Translations under genes and position numbers: made by a program
In this document: positions 14,812 through 21,876 of the stretch, piece by piece
Numbering within the stretch: the stretch's first letter is position 1
How the letters are laid out: each line of letters starts with the position of its first letter
The notes under the pieces: generated by a model
What the model was told of the DNA's origin: nothing
The model's database searches: none
What the model saw: only the letters and a program-made list of their open reading frames with translations
Assembly (NCBI RefSeq): GCF_006716425.1
Contig: NZ_VFOZ01000001.1
Location: 6,758,001-6,822,000 of the forward strand
From: Actinoallomurus bryophytorum
GTDB taxonomy: Bacteria > Actinomycetota > Actinomycetes > Streptosporangiales > Streptosporangiaceae
Direction: 5' to 3'
Length of the DNA stretch: 64,000 nucleotides

Positions 14812-15474
14812 ATGACGTGGACCACGATGGATGATCTTGATGCTTTTCTCGCCGTCGCCGACGACTACCTGAGTGCACGTCCCGACCGGCACACCATGCT
14901 GCTGTCCGCCATCGCGTCCCACCGAAGCGCTGATCATCGGTACGCCGCGGAGTGTGCTCCGCTCTACGGCTGGTGGCGGGAGGCATCGGGGGAGAGGCGG
15001 CTCGCCGGCGCGTTCGTCTGGACGCCCCCGCACCTCATCGCGATCTCGCCGATGCCGGGCGAGGCGACTTCGCGACTCGCGCCCGTCATCGCCGCCCAGC
15101 GGAGAGCCACCACGGGGCTGGTCGGACCCGGCCCGGCGGTGCACGAGATCGTCGGCGCCTGGTTCCGTCACACCGGATCGCGTGCGTACGTGCGCAGGAA
15201 CACGCGGCTCTACCGGCTCGGCCGGTTGACGTGGCCGAAGCCGCCAGTGCCGGGACGTTCACGGCCGGCGACGGCGGGCGACCGAGGGCTCCTGCTGGAA
15301 TGGTGCGAGGCCTTCGCCCGTGAAACCGGCGAGAGGCTCGCGGACGGCGCCGCCCTCGTGGACGAACGACTCGCCTACGGCGGCTGGACGCTGTGGGAGT
15401 CCGCGGACGGGCCCGTCTCGCTGGCGGGGATCACCCGTGCCACGTCACGCATGGCACGGATCACGCCCGTCTAG
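14812..15474 (+). pseudogene. GNAT-family acetyltransferase truncated before the acetyl-CoA motif
   Basis: 220 residues from ATG 14812. The body resembles actinobacterial two-part GNAT proteins: an N-terminal domain with GLVGPGPAVHEIVGAW, then LLLEWCEAFARETGE and the beta strands GGWTLWESADGPVSLAGI and RMARITPV. In relatives this last strand runs on as 'GPVYTPPEHRGRGYGSAV', the acetyl-CoA-binding motif A. Here GTC is followed by TAG where the tyrosine codon TAC is expected, and the next codons (gcc ccg gcc gaa) still look like the tail of that motif before it decays. I infer a recent nonsense mutation; an unusual short enzyme is the alternative. Confidence 0.65.
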
Positions 15475-15556
15475 GCCCCGGCCGAAGCCGAAGCGACGGG
15501 GCGAAAGCGGCCGCGGTAGCCGTTCGCCCGTTCATTTTCCAGGGGGGAAGACCTTG

Positions 15557-17503
15557 ATGGATGCCACATGGAGAGGAACGTCCACGGACCTCGGCGGTCT
15601 GCTCTCGGCCGTCAACGGCAAAGGCGAGCGACCGGGTTCGTCGATCGGACCGTGGCGGGAGAAAGCAGGGCTGCGATTCGGCCTGCTCGGAGCCGTGACC
15701 GCGTGGCAGGACGGAGCCGAGCTGGATCTGGGATCACCACAGCAGCGGGCCGTACTCGCACATCTGCTGCTGCGGGACGGCGGTCACGTGCCGCTCGGTG
15801 AACTCATCGACTCCTTGTGGGGCGACGACGTCCCACGGGGCGCTCGCAGCACTGTTCGGACCTACATCTACCGGCTGCGCCGGCTCCTGGATCCGGCGGT
15901 GACCGACGGCCACATGGCGCTTCTGTCCCAGGGCCCGGGGTACTCGATCCTGGTCGATCCCGCCAGGGTGGATCTCACCGTGTTCCAGCAGTGCGTCGCC
16001 GACGGGAAGGCCGCCTGGGACCTCGGCGATATCGGCGAGGCCGACCGGTGGTTCGAGCAGGCGAAGACGCTCTGGCGCGGTGATCCGTTGATGGGCGTGT
16101 CCGGACGGTATTTCGACGGGCAGCGCGACCGGCTGGACCGGCTTCGCTCGACGGTGCTCGAAGAGGGGCTCAGGCTGAAGATCGAGCTGGGGCAGCACTC
16201 GCTCGTCGTGCCAGAGCTGACCGAGGCCGTCACCCGGCACCCGTTGCGGGAACACCTGTGGGAACTCCTGATGCTCGCCCTGTACCGGTCCGGTTCGCAG
16301 GCGGAGGCGCTCGCCGCGTACCGGCACGTACGAACCCTGCTGCGGGATGAGATGGGCCTCGAGCCGGGCCCCGGCCTGCGCGATCTGCATCAGCGGATCC
16401 TCGAGTCGGACCCCTCGCTCACGGGGATGGCGACCGGCCGGCAGAGAGCCTACGAGCTGGTCGCGCCCGCCCAGTTGCCCCCACCCGTCGACGGCTTCGT
16501 CGGGCGCGAGACCGAGATCCGGGAGATACGGGATTCGCTCATCCCTCCAGGCCAACGGGAAATCATCAACGTGACCGGTGTCGTCGGCGTCGGGAAGAGC
16601 GCCCTTGCGATCAGCGTCTGCCAGACGCTGCGAGCCTGGTTCCCCGACGGTCAGCTCTACGCGGAGTTGAGCGAGGACGGGCGCCGCGTTGACCCCCGCG
16701 AGGTGCTGACCGGGTTTCTCCTCGCCTTCGGTGTTCACGCCCCGGCCCATGACAGGCCGCTGGCCGAGCTCAGTGCCATGTGGCGCAGCGTGGTGGCCGA
16801 TCGCAAGATACTGGTCCTGCTGGACGACGCGCACGACAGTGCGCAGGTCATGCCGCTGCTGCCCGGCTCGCATGGCTGCGGTGTTCTGATCACGAGCTGG
16901 CGACGACTGGTCGACGTACCCGGACTACGGCCCGTCCCGGTCGGCGGACTGCGGCCCCAAGAGGCACTGCGGCTCCTGAGCGGGCTGGCCGGGGACCGGC
17001 GCGTGGCGGAAGAACCAGAGGCGTGCGCACGGCTGGTCGCGAGATGCTCGCATCACCCGCTTCCGATCCGCGTCGTGGCGGCGCGCTTGCTGGGCCGCCC
17101 CTACCTCTCCGTCGACCAGGTCGACGCGCGCGTCCAGGACGACCTTCGGCAGCTGTACGCCGTCGACGAGGACTGCGAGGTGGTCGACAGGCGCTATGGA
17201 CTCGCGCTCGATCGACTCAATCCCGAGCTGGCCAGAGCCGCCATGCTTTTCGGGATGACGGGAGGGCGCTCGTTGGACCTGCCCGCAGCGGCCGCGCTAC
17301 TCGGCCTGCCCAAAACGCAGGCATGCCGAGTATCCGAGGCACTGGGAAATGCGCATTTCCTTGAGATCGATTCGAAGGGAAATTATTGGCAGGCCGCCAT
17401 TGTCTGCGCCTTGATGCGACGGTACGCACTTCGCAGGCGGGGTGTGAACGAATGCAAGGCGGCCCTCGACCGGCTCTCGGCACACCTGGACACCGTTTCC
17501 TAG
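15557..17503 (+). CDS. SARP-family regulator with NB-ARC ATPase domain (AfsR-like, no TPR domain)
   Basis: 648 residues. After about 35 variable residues comes an OmpR-type winged helix (LRFGLLGAVTAWQDGAELDL to about 130, with STVRTYIYRLRRLL), then the bacterial transcriptional activation domain (about 140-285, VDLTVFQQCV and GLEPGPGLRDLHQRIL). The NB-ARC module follows: P-loop GVVGVGKSA (about 340), Walker B KILVLLDDA (about 420). AfsR (about 1000 residues) continues into TPR repeats, which are missing here. SARPs activate secondary-metabolite genes, but no biosynthetic cluster is visible nearby. The likely targets are unknown. AGGGGGGAAG precedes the ATG. Confidence 0.92.
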   Translation: MDATWRGTSTDLGGLLSAVNGKGERPGSSIGPWREKAGLRFGLLGAVTAWQDGAELDLGSPQQRAVLAHLLLRDGGHVPLGELIDSLWGDDVPRGARSTVRTYIYRLRRLLDPAVTDGHMALLSQGPGYSILVDPARVDLTVFQQCVADGKAAWDLGDIGEADRWFEQAKTLWRGDPLMGVSGRYFDGQRDRLDRLRSTVLEEGLRLKIELGQHSLVVPELTEAVTRHPLREHLWELLMLALYRSGSQAEALAAYRHVRTLLRDEMGLEPGPGLRDLHQRILESDPSLTGMATGRQRAYELVAPAQLPPPVDGFVGRETEIREIRDSLIPPGQREIINVTGVVGVGKSALAISVCQTLRAWFPDGQLYAELSEDGRRVDPREVLTGFLLAFGVHAPAHDRPLAELSAMWRSVVADRKILVLLDDAHDSAQVMPLLPGSHGCGVLITSWRRLVDVPGLRPVPVGGLRPQEALRLLSGLAGDRRVAEEPEACARLVARCSHHPLPIRVVAARLLGRPYLSVDQVDARVQDDLRQLYAVDEDCEVVDRRYGLALDRLNPELARAAMLFGMTGGRSLDLPAAAALLGLPKTQACRVSEALGNAHFLEIDSKGNYWQAAIVCALMRRYALRRRGVNECKAALDRLSAHLDTVS

Positions 17504-17621
17504 CCACTGGGCCGGCGGTCGTGCGGTCGTCGAAAGTACCGGTCGGGCGTGGCGTGAACACCGCCTGGCGCCGGACCACCCGGGGATCCGGGTGCGCTGT
17601 TGTGGACACCATAACAAGATA

Positions 17622-17641
17622 GTATCGTCTCGTACCGAGAC
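17622..17641. promoter_or_regulatory. Degenerate GTATC-N4 palindrome overlapping a perfect GTCTCG-TAC-CGAGAC inverted repeat
   Basis: GTATCGTCTCGTAC (17622-17635) has the same 14-base frame as the GTATC-N4-GATAC sites at 19689 and 20972 but a weaker right half. Overlapping it is a perfect 6-3-6 inverted repeat (17627-17641). Both lie about 90 bases upstream of the gene at 17726 and could bind the MarR protein encoded at 19741 or a TetR-type repressor. Confidence 0.5.
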
Positions 17642-17725
17642 AAGCCTGTCTTGTTTGCCGAGCCCCCGCCGGCATCGATGCGACCTGATGGGCGCCGCTC
17701 CTACCGAAGATCTCTGAGGACTGTG

Positions 17726-18766
17726 ATGGTCATGAGAAAACCACGCCGGCCGATGCGCCTGCTCGCGTGCGTCGTGGCGGCACCCGTCATCGCATTCGCG
17801 GCTCTGGCGGCGTTCGCGTGGCCATCGGCCAGGTTGGAGCCGCGGAGCCTGCCCATCGCGGTGGTCGGAAGCACGCAGACCATCGCCCCCCTCCTCGTAC
17901 GGCTGGAAGAGCGGGCCGGCGCCTTCGACGTCCACGTCTATCCCGACGGCGCGGCGGCGAAGCGGGCGATCGAAGACCGGCAGGTCTACGGCGCCTTCGT
18001 CGCCACTCCCACGGGGATGACCGTACTCACGTCGTCCGCGGCGAGCCCGCTGGTCGCTCAGCAGATCGTGGCCGTCGCCCCGCAGTTGGTGGCGCATCCG
18101 TCCGCGGACCCGCCCGTACGCCCGGCCGCCGCCAGGCCTGTGAACATCGTCGACGTCGTGCCCGCCGACGCCCATGACCCGCGCGGTGCGGCCCTGAGCT
18201 CGACGGTGCTCCCGTTGGTGCTCACGGGTGTTCTCACCGGGCTCATCATCGCGACGTTGACCGTCCGAGGACTGATGCAGATGGGGGCTCTGATCGCGGC
18301 GTCGGCCGCCGCCGGCCTCGCGGCGGCCACCGTCGTCCAGTCCTGGCTCGACGTGCTCAGTGGTCACTGGATCGCGAACGCCGCTGTCCTGGGGCTGACC
18401 GTAATGGCCATCTCCACCACGGTCGTGGGGTTGGGATGGCTGCTGGGCCGGGCCGGTCAGGTGCTGGGGGCCCTGCTCATGGTCTTCGTCGGCAATCCGT
18501 TCTCCGGCGTATCCGCCGCCCCGGAGCTGTTGCCCCAGCCCGTCGGGTGGATCGGCCGGTTCCTTCCCCCGGGCGCGGCGGCCGAGTTGCTGCGCAGCAG
18601 TGCGTTCTTCGGCGGCAACGGTGCGGCCGAACCCGCGATCGTGCTGTCGGTATGGGCGGGGTGCGGCCTCCTGCTGATCGCCGAGAAGACGCTGCGCCCG
18701 CGCTGGAGGTCGCAGCCCGTGCACGTGGCCAAGCATGTGCCGTCGATCCAGAGCGTCAGGCCGTGA
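17726..18766 (+). CDS. ABC-2-type/YhgE-like membrane protein
   Basis: 346 residues. One N-terminal helix (about 11-32) is followed by an extracytoplasmic domain (about 35-150) that starts LPIAVVGSTQTIAPLLVRLEE, then about five helices packed into residues 155-325 with GNPFSGVSAAPELLPQPVGW in a loop. This is the topology of the DUF3533/YhgE-Pip branch of ABC-2 transporters, which lack an ATPase in the same operon. Role in export or phage/peptide interaction is unclear. GAGGA stands five bases before ATG 17726. It is followed after 49 bases by a methyltransferase gene, so the two are probably one transcript. Confidence 0.75.
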   Translation: MVMRKPRRPMRLLACVVAAPVIAFAALAAFAWPSARLEPRSLPIAVVGSTQTIAPLLVRLEERAGAFDVHVYPDGAAAKRAIEDRQVYGAFVATPTGMTVLTSSAASPLVAQQIVAVAPQLVAHPSADPPVRPAAARPVNIVDVVPADAHDPRGAALSSTVLPLVLTGVLTGLIIATLTVRGLMQMGALIAASAAAGLAAATVVQSWLDVLSGHWIANAAVLGLTVMAISTTVVGLGWLLGRAGQVLGALLMVFVGNPFSGVSAAPELLPQPVGWIGRFLPPGAAAELLRSSAFFGGNGAAEPAIVLSVWAGCGLLLIAEKTLRPRWRSQPVHVAKHVPSIQSVRP

Positions 18767-18815
18767 GGGTTCTCACCGGCATTCCACTCAACCGACATTC
18801 AAGGAGTTCGTGACC

Positions 18816-19664
18816 ATGGCAGAGATCGTCAATGTTGAGCAGGCCGCCGCGTGGAACGGCGTGGCCGGAGTCCACTGGGCCACCTATTCGGACTACTACG
18901 AAGGTGGCGTCCGCCTTCTGCGGGATCGGCTGCTCAGGGCCGCGAGCGTGAGCGCCGGCGAGCGGATCCTGGACGTCGGCTGTGGCACCGGGGCCACGAC
19001 GCGGGCCGTCGCGCGAACCGCGGGCTCCGAGGGGTACGCCCTCGGGGCGGACCTTTCGTCGCCGATGCTGGAAAAGGCCCGGCGGCTGGCCTCGGCCGAA
19101 GGGCTGGACGATATCGAGTTCGAGCGTGCCGACGCGCAGGTCCATCCCTTCCCGGTGGGCGGGTTCGACAAGGTGATCAGTTCGTTCGGCGTGATGTTCT
19201 TCTCCGACCGGCAGGCCGCGTTCGAGAACCTCGGTCAAGCCCTTCGCCCTGGTGGTGAGCTGGCGATCATCGTGTGGCGTGCGCTGGCCGACAATCCCTG
19301 GGTGACGCTGCAGATGGACGCGATGGCGATGGGGCGTACGCTGCCCGGTCCCCCCGCGGGTGTGCCGAGCCCCTTCGCGATGGCCGACGAGGCCGACGTC
19401 CTCCAGATGCTGAAGGCTTCGGGCTTCGTCGACGTCGCGGGGGAGGACGTGGACGAACTCATATTCCTGGGCAAGAGTCCCGAGGATGCGGAGGCGTGTC
19501 TCACTCTTCCCGGCGGGCCGGTCCACGGGCTCATGACGGACCTGGACGAGGCCGACACGGCCGAAGCGCGCCGTCGTCTGCGCGCCATGCTGGCCGAGCA
19601 CCAGACCTCCGAAGGCGTCGGCCTCCAGACCGGAGCTCGTATCTGGACGGCGCGCCGAGGGTGA
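18816..19664 (+). CDS. Class I SAM-dependent methyltransferase, UbiE-like
   Basis: 282 residues. Motif I is ILDVGCGTGATTRAV (about 53-67), the acidic strand is ALGADLSSPML (about 80-90), and motif II/III are FDKVISSFGVMFFSD and LRPGGELAIIVW. NVEQAAAWNGVAGVHWATY at the N-terminus is typical of the actinobacterial group annotated as ubiquinone/menaquinone-type or small-molecule methyltransferases. AAGGAG lies nine bases before ATG 18816. The neighbours are a membrane protein, a MarR regulator and a quinone reductase, which points to methylation of a phenolic or quinone compound, by inference. Confidence 0.9.
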   Translation: MAEIVNVEQAAAWNGVAGVHWATYSDYYEGGVRLLRDRLLRAASVSAGERILDVGCGTGATTRAVARTAGSEGYALGADLSSPMLEKARRLASAEGLDDIEFERADAQVHPFPVGGFDKVISSFGVMFFSDRQAAFENLGQALRPGGELAIIVWRALADNPWVTLQMDAMAMGRTLPGPPAGVPSPFAMADEADVLQMLKASGFVDVAGEDVDELIFLGKSPEDAEACLTLPGGPVHGLMTDLDEADTAEARRRLRAMLAEHQTSEGVGLQTGARIWTARRG

Positions 19665-19688
19665 GCCGCAACTGCCAGAGCCAAACTA

Positions 19689-19702
19689 GTATCAAACGAT
19701 AC
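19689..19702. promoter_or_regulatory. MarR-type operator GTATCAAACGATAC
   Basis: Inverted repeat GTATC-N4-GATAC, 38 bases upstream of the MarR gene start. The same 14-base layout recurs at 20972-20985. Autoregulation by the adjacent MarR protein is the simplest reading. Confidence 0.65.
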
Positions 19703-19740
19703 GATATTATTCGAACCGATTTTGCGGTATAGTCCGGAGG

Positions 19741-20226
19741 ATGAGTCGCGGACCGGGTGAGGGCGCTGAGGCCGAGCGCGTGACCGCCGGTCCGCATGGC
19801 GGTTCGCCGTTCGCGCTCGGGCTCCTGCTTCGCCGGGCGCATGCCCGTGCGGCCTCGACGATGGCGGCCGCGGTGAGGCCCCTCGGGCTGGAGCTGCGTC
19901 ACCTCGCCGTCCTGATCGTGCTTGTCGAGGAGGGTCCGACCACCCAGCGTGACCTGGGGTTCGAGACGGGTTTCGACAAGGCGGCCATCATGCGCGTCGT
20001 CGACGATCTCGAATCCGCCGGCTACGCGGTGCGCCGGGCCGTGGCCGGGGACCGCCGGGTCCGCGCGGTCGAGATCACGGCCCGCGGGCTCGAGGTCTTC
20101 GACACGGCTCAGGCCAGTGCCGCCGGTCTGGCCGACGGGCTGGTCGCCCACCTTCGTCCGGGCGAGACCGATCAGCTCGTTGACCTGCTGACGCGCTTCA
20201 CCTATCCACCCTCCAGCGCAACATGA
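19741..20226 (+). CDS. MarR-family transcriptional regulator
   Basis: 161 residues from ATG 19741, or 148 from GTG 19780. GGAGG directly abuts the ATG, too close for ideal spacing, so the GTG with GAGGC seven bases upstream is a serious alternative. The winged helix runs through LELRHLAVLIVLVEEGPTTQRDLG, FDKAAIMRVVDDLESAGYAVR and the wing AVAGDRRVRAVEI. MarR proteins repress genes for export or detoxification until a phenolic ligand or oxidant binds. Palindromes in its own promoter and in that of the genes at 20912 and 21040 mark probable targets. It ends convergently, overlapping the quinone reductase gene by 25 bases. Confidence 0.92.
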   Translation: MSRGPGEGAEAERVTAGPHGGSPFALGLLLRRAHARAASTMAAAVRPLGLELRHLAVLIVLVEEGPTTQRDLGFETGFDKAAIMRVVDDLESAGYAVRRAVAGDRRVRAVEITARGLEVFDTAQASAAGLADGLVAHLRPGETDQLVDLLTRFTYPPSSAT

Positions 20227-20912
20227 CGACGGGCGAGTGACAGGCCGGACCGCCGGCGGGAGTCTTCACCGGCGGCGGTGAGAGCGAGGCGCTGGGCGGC
20301 CCGCCCGGTCTTGAACGTCGCGGCCAGGCCCGCGATCCGTTCCCCCTGGAATCGCGCGGCGTTCAGGGCGGTCTCGTCGACGGGTATCGAGCCGTCCTCG
20401 CCTGTCACATGGCCGGCGCCGTAGGGATTTCCCGCGGAGTCGTTGATGTGGTTCTTGTATCCAGGCGAAGCGATGATGCCACCGAAGTGATAAATGGAGT
20501 TGTACAACGCGAGTAGCGTCGATTCCTGCCCGCCGTGAGCCGAGGCGGTCGAGGTGAATCCGCTGTAGACCTTGTCCGAGAGAAGATCTTGTCGCCACAG
20601 GCCGGACAACGTGTCGATGAACTGCTTCAGCTGACTGGCGACATTCCCGAAGCGGGCGGGAGTGCCGAAGATGACGGCATCGGCCCAGAGCAGATCCTCG
20701 TGAGTGGCCAGTGGAACGCGGCTCGTGGCGGCGAGGTTGTGCACCCAGGCGTCGTTGCTGAGGATCGCCTTCAGTGGCGCGAGCTCCTCGACCCTTCGTA
20801 GCCTTACGGCCGCCCCGGCATCGGTGGCACCGGCGCGCACGGCGTCGGCCAGTGTGTGGATCGTGCCCGTTGCGGAGTAATAGACGATGGCGACGTTGCT
20901 CGATTCGGACAT
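20202..20912 (-). CDS. NAD(P)H:quinone oxidoreductase, WrbA-like flavodoxin fold
   Basis: 236 residues. The FMN phosphate loop is VYYSATGTIHTLAD (10-23); FGTPARFGNVASQLKQFIDTL (about 82-102) and FTSTASAHGGQESTLL (about 118-133) are the two further FMN/quinone loops of WrbA. A C-terminal extension of about 30 residues (after ATFKTGRAAQRLA) is longer than WrbA's usual 200. The enzyme reduces quinones by two electrons, avoiding semiquinone radicals, in the cytosol. It is divergent from a methyltransferase, sharing a promoter with a perfect operator-like palindrome. A reduction-then-methylation detoxification pathway is inferred. Confidence 0.93.
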   Translation of the reverse strand: MSESSNVAIVYYSATGTIHTLADAVRAGATDAGAAVRLRRVEELAPLKAILSNDAWVHNLAATSRVPLATHEDLLWADAVIFGTPARFGNVASQLKQFIDTLSGLWRQDLLSDKVYSGFTSTASAHGGQESTLLALYNSIYHFGGIIASPGYKNHINDSAGNPYGAGHVTGEDGSIPVDETALNAARFQGERIAGLAATFKTGRAAQRLALTAAGEDSRRRSGLSLARRHVALEGG

Positions 20913-20971
20913 GTCTTAACTCCCTTGTCGTATTCGATCGGCCGGCACCATTTTCTGTTTCACTTGCGACG

Positions 20972-20985
20972 GTATCATGTGATAC
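20972..20985. promoter_or_regulatory. Perfect operator palindrome GTATCATGTGATAC in a divergent promoter
   Basis: A 6-2-6 perfect inverted repeat between the quinone reductase start (20912) and the methyltransferase start (21040). It matches the GTATC-N4-GATAC frame at 19689, so one regulator, most simply the MarR protein at 19741, could control both directions. Confidence 0.7.
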
Positions 20986-21039: not shown

Positions 21040-21876
21040 ATGAGCAGGGATATCTCCGAGATCGATGCGATCGGAAGAACGGCTTTCGAGGTGGCCGCTC
21101 TTCGCGCGGCCGAGACTCGGCGGGCTGACCGCCTGTTCGAGGACCCGTATGCCGAGATGTTCCTCGATGCGGCGGGCGTCGACGCCGAGCCGACCGCGGC
21201 CAAGGCCGCCTTCGCGGCGATCATGGGGGTCCAGGCCGCGGTGCGGACCAGATTCCTCGACGAGGCGCTGGTCTCGGCGGCGTCGAGCGGATGCCGTCAG
21301 GTGGTGCTCCTGGCGGCCGGGATGGACAGCCGGGCCCACCGGATCGCGTGGCCGGCCGGTACCGAGCTCTTCGAGGTAGACCGGCCGGCGGTCCTGCGTT
21401 TCAAGCAACGCGTCCTGCAAGTGCATTCGGCCACCGCGCACACCGGCGTACGCGCCGTCGAGGCCGACCTGCGTGAGGACTGGTCCGCCGCACTGATGGA
21501 GGCCGGGTTCTCGCACGGCCGCAGAACCGCCTGGCTCGTCGAGGGACTCCTCTACGCGATGGACGAGAGCGACGCCGGCCGTCTGCTCACCGAGATCGGC
21601 GACATCAGCGTCCACGGCAGCGTCATCGGCTTCGACCACATCGAGGACAGTGACGCGCTGCGGCAGGCCCTCACGTCGATCAGCCCCGGGCTCGCCCGGC
21701 TCTGGCGGTCCGGGCCGAGCGATCCGGACACGTGGCTGCGCCGTCACGGCTGGAGGCCGGACATCAGAGAGCTCGCCACCGTCGCGCATACCTATGGCCG
21801 GCAGGTGCATCCGGCCTACGACCCCGACCAGCCCGGCGCGGCGCACAGCTGGCTGGTCACCGCCACACGGCTTTGA
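21040..21876 (+). CDS. SAM-dependent methyltransferase, PPM/leucine carboxyl methyltransferase-like family
   Basis: 278 residues, full length for the family. The N-terminus shows the family signature ALRAAETRRADRLFEDPYAEMF. The SAM loop is VVLLAAGMDSRAHRIAWP (about 89-106) and the ribose-binding strand is ELFEVDRPAVLRFK. WLVEGLLYAMDE (about 168) is the conserved E-G-x-x-x-Y region. It is a paralogue of the partial gene at the window's left edge. GGAGG lies seven bases before the ATG. It shares a promoter and palindrome with the divergent quinone reductase; substrate unknown. Confidence 0.92.
   Translation: MSRDISEIDAIGRTAFEVAALRAAETRRADRLFEDPYAEMFLDAAGVDAEPTAAKAAFAAIMGVQAAVRTRFLDEALVSAASSGCRQVVLLAAGMDSRAHRIAWPAGTELFEVDRPAVLRFKQRVLQVHSATAHTGVRAVEADLREDWSAALMEAGFSHGRRTAWLVEGLLYAMDESDAGRLLTEIGDISVHGSVIGFDHIEDSDALRQALTSISPGLARLWRSGPSDPDTWLRRHGWRPDIRELATVAHTYGRQVHPAYDPDQPGAAHSWLVTATRL

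Follow-up and report, generated by a model that had tools for sequence, protein, structure and literature searches.

A putative local MarR regulon with wrbA and a methyltransferase gene in Actinoallomurus bryophytorum

The window analysed here is a 64,000 nucleotide stretch (G000:C1:6758001-6822000; coordinates below count from its first base unless another contig is named) of the 9.47 Mb, three-contig genome of Actinoallomurus bryophytorum. It carries a gene for a MarR-family repressor, marR, whose predicted operators point to a small regulon. It seems quite probable that this regulon is local and self-limiting and consists of marR itself, the quinone oxidoreductase gene wrbA and the S-adenosylmethionine (SAM)-dependent methyltransferase gene that starts at 21040, and that an adjoining gene pair, encoding a membrane protein and another methyltransferase, belongs to a separate TetR circuit.

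Paired operators in the window

Two exact GTATC-N4-GATAC palindromes, one in the marR promoter and the other between wrbA and the divergent methyltransferase gene (Table 1), were reported in an earlier sequence-only reading of the window; both lie where it placed them, and a search of the whole genome finds no others. From composition (the window is about 70% GC), some 1.7 exact matches are expected per genome, or 0.011 per 64 kb, so the count of two is unremarkable in itself; the telling point is that both are intergenic and lie 1.3 kb apart. When scored with a matrix from other genomes (35 sites in 31 orthologue loci, each differing from the consensus at no more than one position), the 19689 and 20972 palindromes reach 26.1 and 22.4, the top two of 63,987 window positions, and the highest maximum over 30 Markov-shuffled 64 kb sequences is 18.3. 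A stricter degenerate pattern occurs at four places in this genome, namely both operators and two places with GGCC centres. Candidates for a wider MarR regulon in the same genome were rejected, since the next-best places (GTATCACTAAATAC, GTAGCATTCGATAC, ATATCGGCCGATAC and GTATTGGCCGATAC) have, by eye, no second unit or fitting gene. A terminator scan found none.

The operators appear to be arrays rather than single sites. If the mean matrix score in the orthologue loci is plotted by offset from the main site, +15 bp is the one clear outlier, in marR and nitroreductase promoters alike; with a softer matrix the +15 means are 9.9 for nitroreductase promoters (n = 30) and 12.3 for marR promoters (n = 22), and offset means are near -8. 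The window retains this 15 bp pattern at both operator sites, with a weak second unit beside each. At about 1.4 helical turns, a 15 bp spacing would put neighbouring dimers on roughly opposite faces of the DNA; the alternation GTATC-N4-GATAC-N-GTATC also allows a different choice of dimer unit.

Genes were assigned with Pfam and NCBIfam models and PDB sequence searches. In addition to the model given in Table 1, the wrbA product exceeds the cut-off of NF002999 (172 bits, cut-off 141) and matches the PDB WrbA entry 1ydg (1.3e-43); the 3′ ends of wrbA and marR overlap by 25 bp. The 21040 methyltransferase matches LCM (2.8e-50) and PDB entry 2ckd (2.2e-40). Genes for an MSMEG_0569-like flavin oxidoreductase and an OsmC-like protein lie downstream (Pfam/NCBIfam).

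Table 1. Predicted operators, repeat element and genes of the window
Feature	Position	Strand	Basis
MarR operator (predicted), marR promoter, GTATCAAACGATAC	19689..19702		Exact GTATC-N4-GATAC; highest matrix score of the window
Weak second operator unit, 15 bp downstream of 19689, ATATTATTCGAACC	19704..19717		Matrix rank 3, softer matrix 4, of 63,987
MarR operator (predicted), wrbA/methyltransferase intergenic, GTATCATGTGATAC	20972..20985		Exact GTATC-N4-GATAC; matrix rank 2 in window
Weak second operator unit, wrbA side of 20972, 15 bp away, GTTTCACTTGCGAC	20957..20970		Matrix rank 15, softer matrix 17, of 63,987
marR, MarR-family repressor, 161 aa, no cysteine	19741..20226	+	Pfam MarR_2 1.6e-12, 47.8 bits (cut-off 27)
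wrbA, NAD(P)H:quinone oxidoreductase type IV	20202..20912	-	TIGR01755 161.2 bits (cut-off 132.5)
SAM-dependent methyltransferase, TIGR00027/LCM family, divergent from wrbA	21040..21876	+	TIGR00027 235.4 bits (cut-off 93.55)
43 bp double palindrome, probable TetR operator	17613..17655		Two ACRAGAY-N6-RTCTYGT units, 17614-17633 and 17635-17654
Membrane protein	17729..18766	+	Pfam ABC2_membrane_3 5.7e-9, N-terminal part of model only
Class I methyltransferase (Methyltransf_25/UbiE-like)	18819..19664	+	Methyltransf_25 3.5e-22

The nitroreductase locus of relatives

A search of 345 genomes of the order, with ten candidates scored per genome, returned MarR matches at 1e-25 or better in 43 genomes, the window's own included. 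There are 33 matches of 60-69% identity in 32 other genomes and 12 further matches of 38-48%. The 33 (L054-L086), together with a Streptomyces adustus locus from a contig scan (L026), make up the 34 close loci counted below; Nonomuraea cypriaca L025 is the same locus as L054 and was left out of the counts. A nitroreductase gene lies near marR in every one of the 34 (PF00881 6.9e-27 for the copy checked, that of genome G007), and in 31 its promoter contains the operator with a score of at least 14, as against none of 4000 random 150 bp stretches from the same loci. This strengthens the reductase theme of the sequence-only reading. As aligned, the distance from operator to nitroreductase start is 50-71 bp in 26 of these 31 loci (distances outside this range include 48 bp in L061, 41 bp in L078 and 11 bp in L072), and the link persists where the gene has the opposite orientation (L058, L063). 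The marR promoter carries an operator at the same threshold in 22 of the 34 loci. Other genes near marR encode an aldo/keto reductase (11/34), a flavin mononucleotide (FMN) reductase (5/34) and a patatin (15/34). Like the window MarR, its close orthologues contain no cysteine (an over-called N-terminus in L056 was set aside).

Several side observations concern these loci. In L062 (genome G186), an operator pair at +521 to +579 stands before an ECF sigma factor gene and not before the nitroreductase. A second nitroreductase copy in G007 (G007:C52:74075-74737, L181) is 97% identical, lies beside a transposase-like reading frame and has no operator. Seven of the 12 weaker MarR matches (L087-L093) were examined and form a sister clade (38-49% identity), in which GTCTC-N4-GAGAC is present with at most one mismatch in five of the seven loci, several with 15 bp neighbours, and a common divergent gene (a multicopper oxidase in the one checked) in six of the seven.

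A strict-pattern scan of 12 hand-picked relatives found 22 places, one to three per genome, and 11 of the 12 genomes have one at the MarR/nitroreductase locus. So few strict sites per genome, mostly at the MarR locus, suggest a small and mainly local regulon. In G176, whose nitroreductase promoter lacks an operator, another site with a 15 bp neighbour precedes a patatin-like gene. Three of six off-locus places examined fall in the same gap between a LysR gene and a TctC-like gene, in three relatives (L202, L203, L214), where the GTATC-N4-GATAC sequence is possibly a LysR site or a case of cross-talk.

The window's genome (about 96% complete) has no match to the G007 nitroreductase at 1e-5 or 1e-3, a search whose validity is supported by its recovery of the gene in G007. 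This second genome belongs to the same genus, and its gene order is marR, a reversed wrbA-like stretch, the operator and the nitroreductase gene; that is, it has the layout of the window with the nitroreductase gene standing where the window has the 21040 methyltransferase gene. In the window, wrbA and this methyltransferase gene thus appear, from gene order, to occupy the slot of the missing nitroreductase. The wrbA-like stretches of G007 (L071) and G049 (L064) look disrupted, with truncated or frame-switching alignments. The G007 stretch matches the window wrbA at 95.1 bits against 93.9 for the next match (sum of two pieces), and the G049 stretch at 106.7 against 103.9; putative direct orthology of the G007 stretch with the window wrbA is weakly supported. 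WrbA was rejected as a general MarR partner, as none of its 29 best other loci has a site of at least 14 and one has a site of 12.5.

A more far-reaching and rather unlikely version of this arrangement is that dimers of the cysteine-free MarR, stacked on the 15 bp-phased repeats, constitute an exchangeable detoxification slot, filled by a nitroreductase in the orthologues, into which WrbA and the methyltransferase would have been swapped here so that one aromatic signal would call up reduction followed by methylation, capping the hydroquinone against re-oxidation. The sister clade would then use the same 15 bp idea with GTCTC-N4-GAGAC and a multicopper oxidase.

A number of points weigh against the three-gene MarR regulon. 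The matrix is not wholly independent evidence, because its sites were picked by the window's own consensus, and the orthologues are mostly of one genus and are not independent, given their shared ancestry. Three of the 34 loci (L062, L074 and L026) lack the operator at the nitroreductase or have a weak one there, and in 12 the marR promoter scores below 14. At +30 bp, the place of a third repeat, the mean score is 2.8, against 3.2 for the half-site overlap at +5, and 10 of the 22 strict places in relatives are away from the MarR locus. In the window itself, a consensus scan found no sigma-70-like promoter, and another MarR relative in the genome (34% identity) could bind similar sites. WrbA adjoins MarR in three of the 34 loci; in two of these it looks disrupted, and the third has no linked operator. 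The TIGR00027 methyltransferase, too, was rejected as a general partner, as its 20 other homologous loci have no site of at least 12. This last result also favors the idea that MarR acts on itself and wrbA only, the methyltransferase sharing the intergenic region by chance, as does the wrbA side of the 20972 operator, which resembles nitroreductase promoters in that its second unit follows 15 bp further downstream, in the direction of the gene. However, that operator precedes the start of the methyltransferase gene by 54 bp and that of wrbA by 59 bp, and in G007 the gene on the methyltransferase side is the operator-linked nitroreductase, so a regulon confined to marR and wrbA is unlikely.

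The membrane-protein gene pair and its 43 bp element

The sequence-only reading had joined five genes into one MarR regulon, and had brought in the membrane-protein gene and the 18819 methyltransferase gene (the two are probably co-transcribed) through a weaker copy of the palindrome at 17622. The site differs from GTATC-N4-GATAC at two positions, and the window contains 12 such matches where 10.8 are expected. Its second half-site is CGTAC, not GATAC; its matrix score of 8.1 is lower than the maximum that shuffled sequences reach on average (10.3), and sites of this quality are found 0.7-1.3 times per 64 kb. It has no partner unit at +15 or -15 bp, and it sits inside a 43 bp inverted repeat that has another centre. 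With a chance-level score, no 15 bp partner and a place within a different element, 17622 was rejected as a third MarR site.

The 43 bp element itself points elsewhere. It folds strongly as RNA (z -3.8), and its pattern of 26 paired bases, with at most three mismatches allowed, is found at two places in the genome, in the window and at C2:20796-20838. The reversed control has no match, and about 0.00002 further copies are expected from composition. The two copies, one of them reversed, are identical at 33 of 43 bases, and the C2 copy ends directly before the called start codon of a TetR gene (TetR_N 4.7e-11, TetR_C_11 1e-19). Each copy is built of two adjacent ACRAGAY-N6-RTCTYGT units; this unit pattern is present without mismatch at three places in the genome, all within the two elements, and with one mismatch at three further places, against a control count of four. 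At G000:C2:20796-21501 (L190/L197) the TetR gene is followed, by eye, by sensor-kinase-like, response-regulator-like and MMPL-like genes.

Membrane-protein homologues occur in 69 of 297 genomes. Among the best 29 loci outside the window, 25 have the gene divergent from a TetR-like gene (one TetR was checked by Pfam), and one of the remaining four is cut by a contig end; neither this MarR nor its operator is present within about 1.5 kb at any of the 29. The TetR proteins of these loci are about 23-36% identical to the C2 TetR and their intergenic palindrome differs, which suggests the same class of regulator and not the same regulator. To judge from these comparisons, the membrane-protein/methyltransferase pair is probably under a TetR and outside the MarR regulon.

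A regulon in which MarR also controls this pair through 17622 would draw some support from the intergenic position of the site and its rank in the window (fourth-best real position with the first matrix, third with the softer one), from L074, where MarR and a remote homologue of the membrane protein (29%) are divergently arranged over the MarR operator, and from L072 and L026, where homologues lie within 6 kb. The features of the site itself, its inclusion in a 43 bp element common to a TetR promoter, and the 29 loci that have neither MarR nor operator make such a regulon very unlikely. Elsewhere, the membrane-protein and 18819 methyltransferase genes are dispersed and without the palindromes, an outcome that the sequence-only reading had itself named as a refutation, and a search of other genomes found the five-gene set in none examined. 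The part of the five-gene proposal that stands is thus marR, wrbA and the 21040 methyltransferase gene.

The 18819 methyltransferase has no NCBIfam model over its cut-off among the 25 matches listed. An AfsR/SARP-like regulator gene (15320-17503) lies directly upstream of the pair, and a SARP-like gene within about 3 kb of marR is also present in L055, L058 and L074.

Proposed mechanism and known regulators

From the predicted genes, the operators and their conservation, the 15 bp repeats and the nitroreductase linkage, we infer MarR binding and repression, a ligand, the enzymes' substrates and, for the adjoining pair, TetR control. A cysteine-free MarR dimer would bind the 15 bp-spaced GTATC-N4-GATAC units at 19689 and 19704 and at 20972 and 20957, and bound MarR would repress its own promoter and the bidirectional wrbA/methyltransferase promoter. 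An aromatic or quinone-like ligand in the MarR pocket would release the protein from DNA, upon which WrbA, the TIGR00027 methyltransferase and more MarR would be made together. Most relatives would use this repressor and its array of operators for the nitroreductase instead. Ligand-released repression is the most likely mechanism; the lack of cysteine in MarR and its close orthologues makes a QsrR/YodB-like thiol switch unlikely. WrbA and nitroreductases are flavoenzymes that carry out two-electron reduction of quinones and nitroaromatics, and it is a reasonable idea that the TIGR00027 enzyme would methylate the resulting hydroquinone. The quinone or phenol sensing and the hydroquinone methylation suggested by the sequence-only reading remain predictions. 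That MarR is an activator, or senses a signal other than an aromatic or quinone-like one, such as a nitro compound or an endogenous metabolite, is highly improbable: the conserved nitroreductase partner and the other reductase and patatin genes nearby do not fix the ligand, but the operators overlap the likely promoter region near the start codons, which fits repression, and quinones are the signal to which the best-studied relatives in this functional class respond.

Quinone and nitro reductases are already known to be controlled by MarR-family proteins, and the regulon proposed here is a modest, MhqR-like variant of such systems. MhqR of Bacillus subtilis and Staphylococcus aureus (PMC6798810) is also a MarR-type repressor with a small regulon, palindromic operators and quinone/nitroreductase targets, and offers a precedent for responding to quinones with no thiol switch. 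Here, too, a MarR repressor is linked by a common palindrome to quinone/nitro-reductase genes, wrbA in the window and the nitroreductase gene in the orthologue loci; however, the MhqR operator, TATCTCGAA-aTCGAaATA, is different from GTATC-N4-GATAC. The MhqR regulons include ring-cleavage dioxygenases and the MhqD hydrolase, none of which is in the three-gene set, and the available text mentions no methyltransferase for them (PMC6798810). RrpA and RrpB of Campylobacter jejuni are called MarR-family proteins, the former with the quinone reductase gene mdaB under its control; unlike the repressor proposed here, it is said to regulate positively, and its genes are different (PMC8765430). QsrR and YodB, which also control quinone reductases and nitroreductases, belong to the MarR/DUF24 group and sense by cysteine alkylation, whereas the window MarR has no cysteine. 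Saro_0803 of Novosphingobium is described as being released from DNA by the aromatic compound resveratrol, and its target is a stilbene-degrading enzyme (PMC10046596); its family model, NF053777, is the best NCBIfam model for the window MarR, which at 58.1 bits against a cut-off of 200 is not a member. Searches of open-access papers gave no match for the gene set, the operator sequence, the 15 bp repeats, the actinomycete nitroreductase linkage or the WrbA/methyltransferase variant.

The analysis outlines a reductase switch of Streptosporangiales-type actinomycetes by its predicted regulator, operator code and defined targets, and dozens of natural variants can be compared. It also separates two adjoining circuits, one of MarR and one of TetR, that look like one from local sequence alone. 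The apparent replacement of the nitroreductase by WrbA and a methyltransferase, with the operator kept, would cleanly exemplify how a local regulon can swap its targets.

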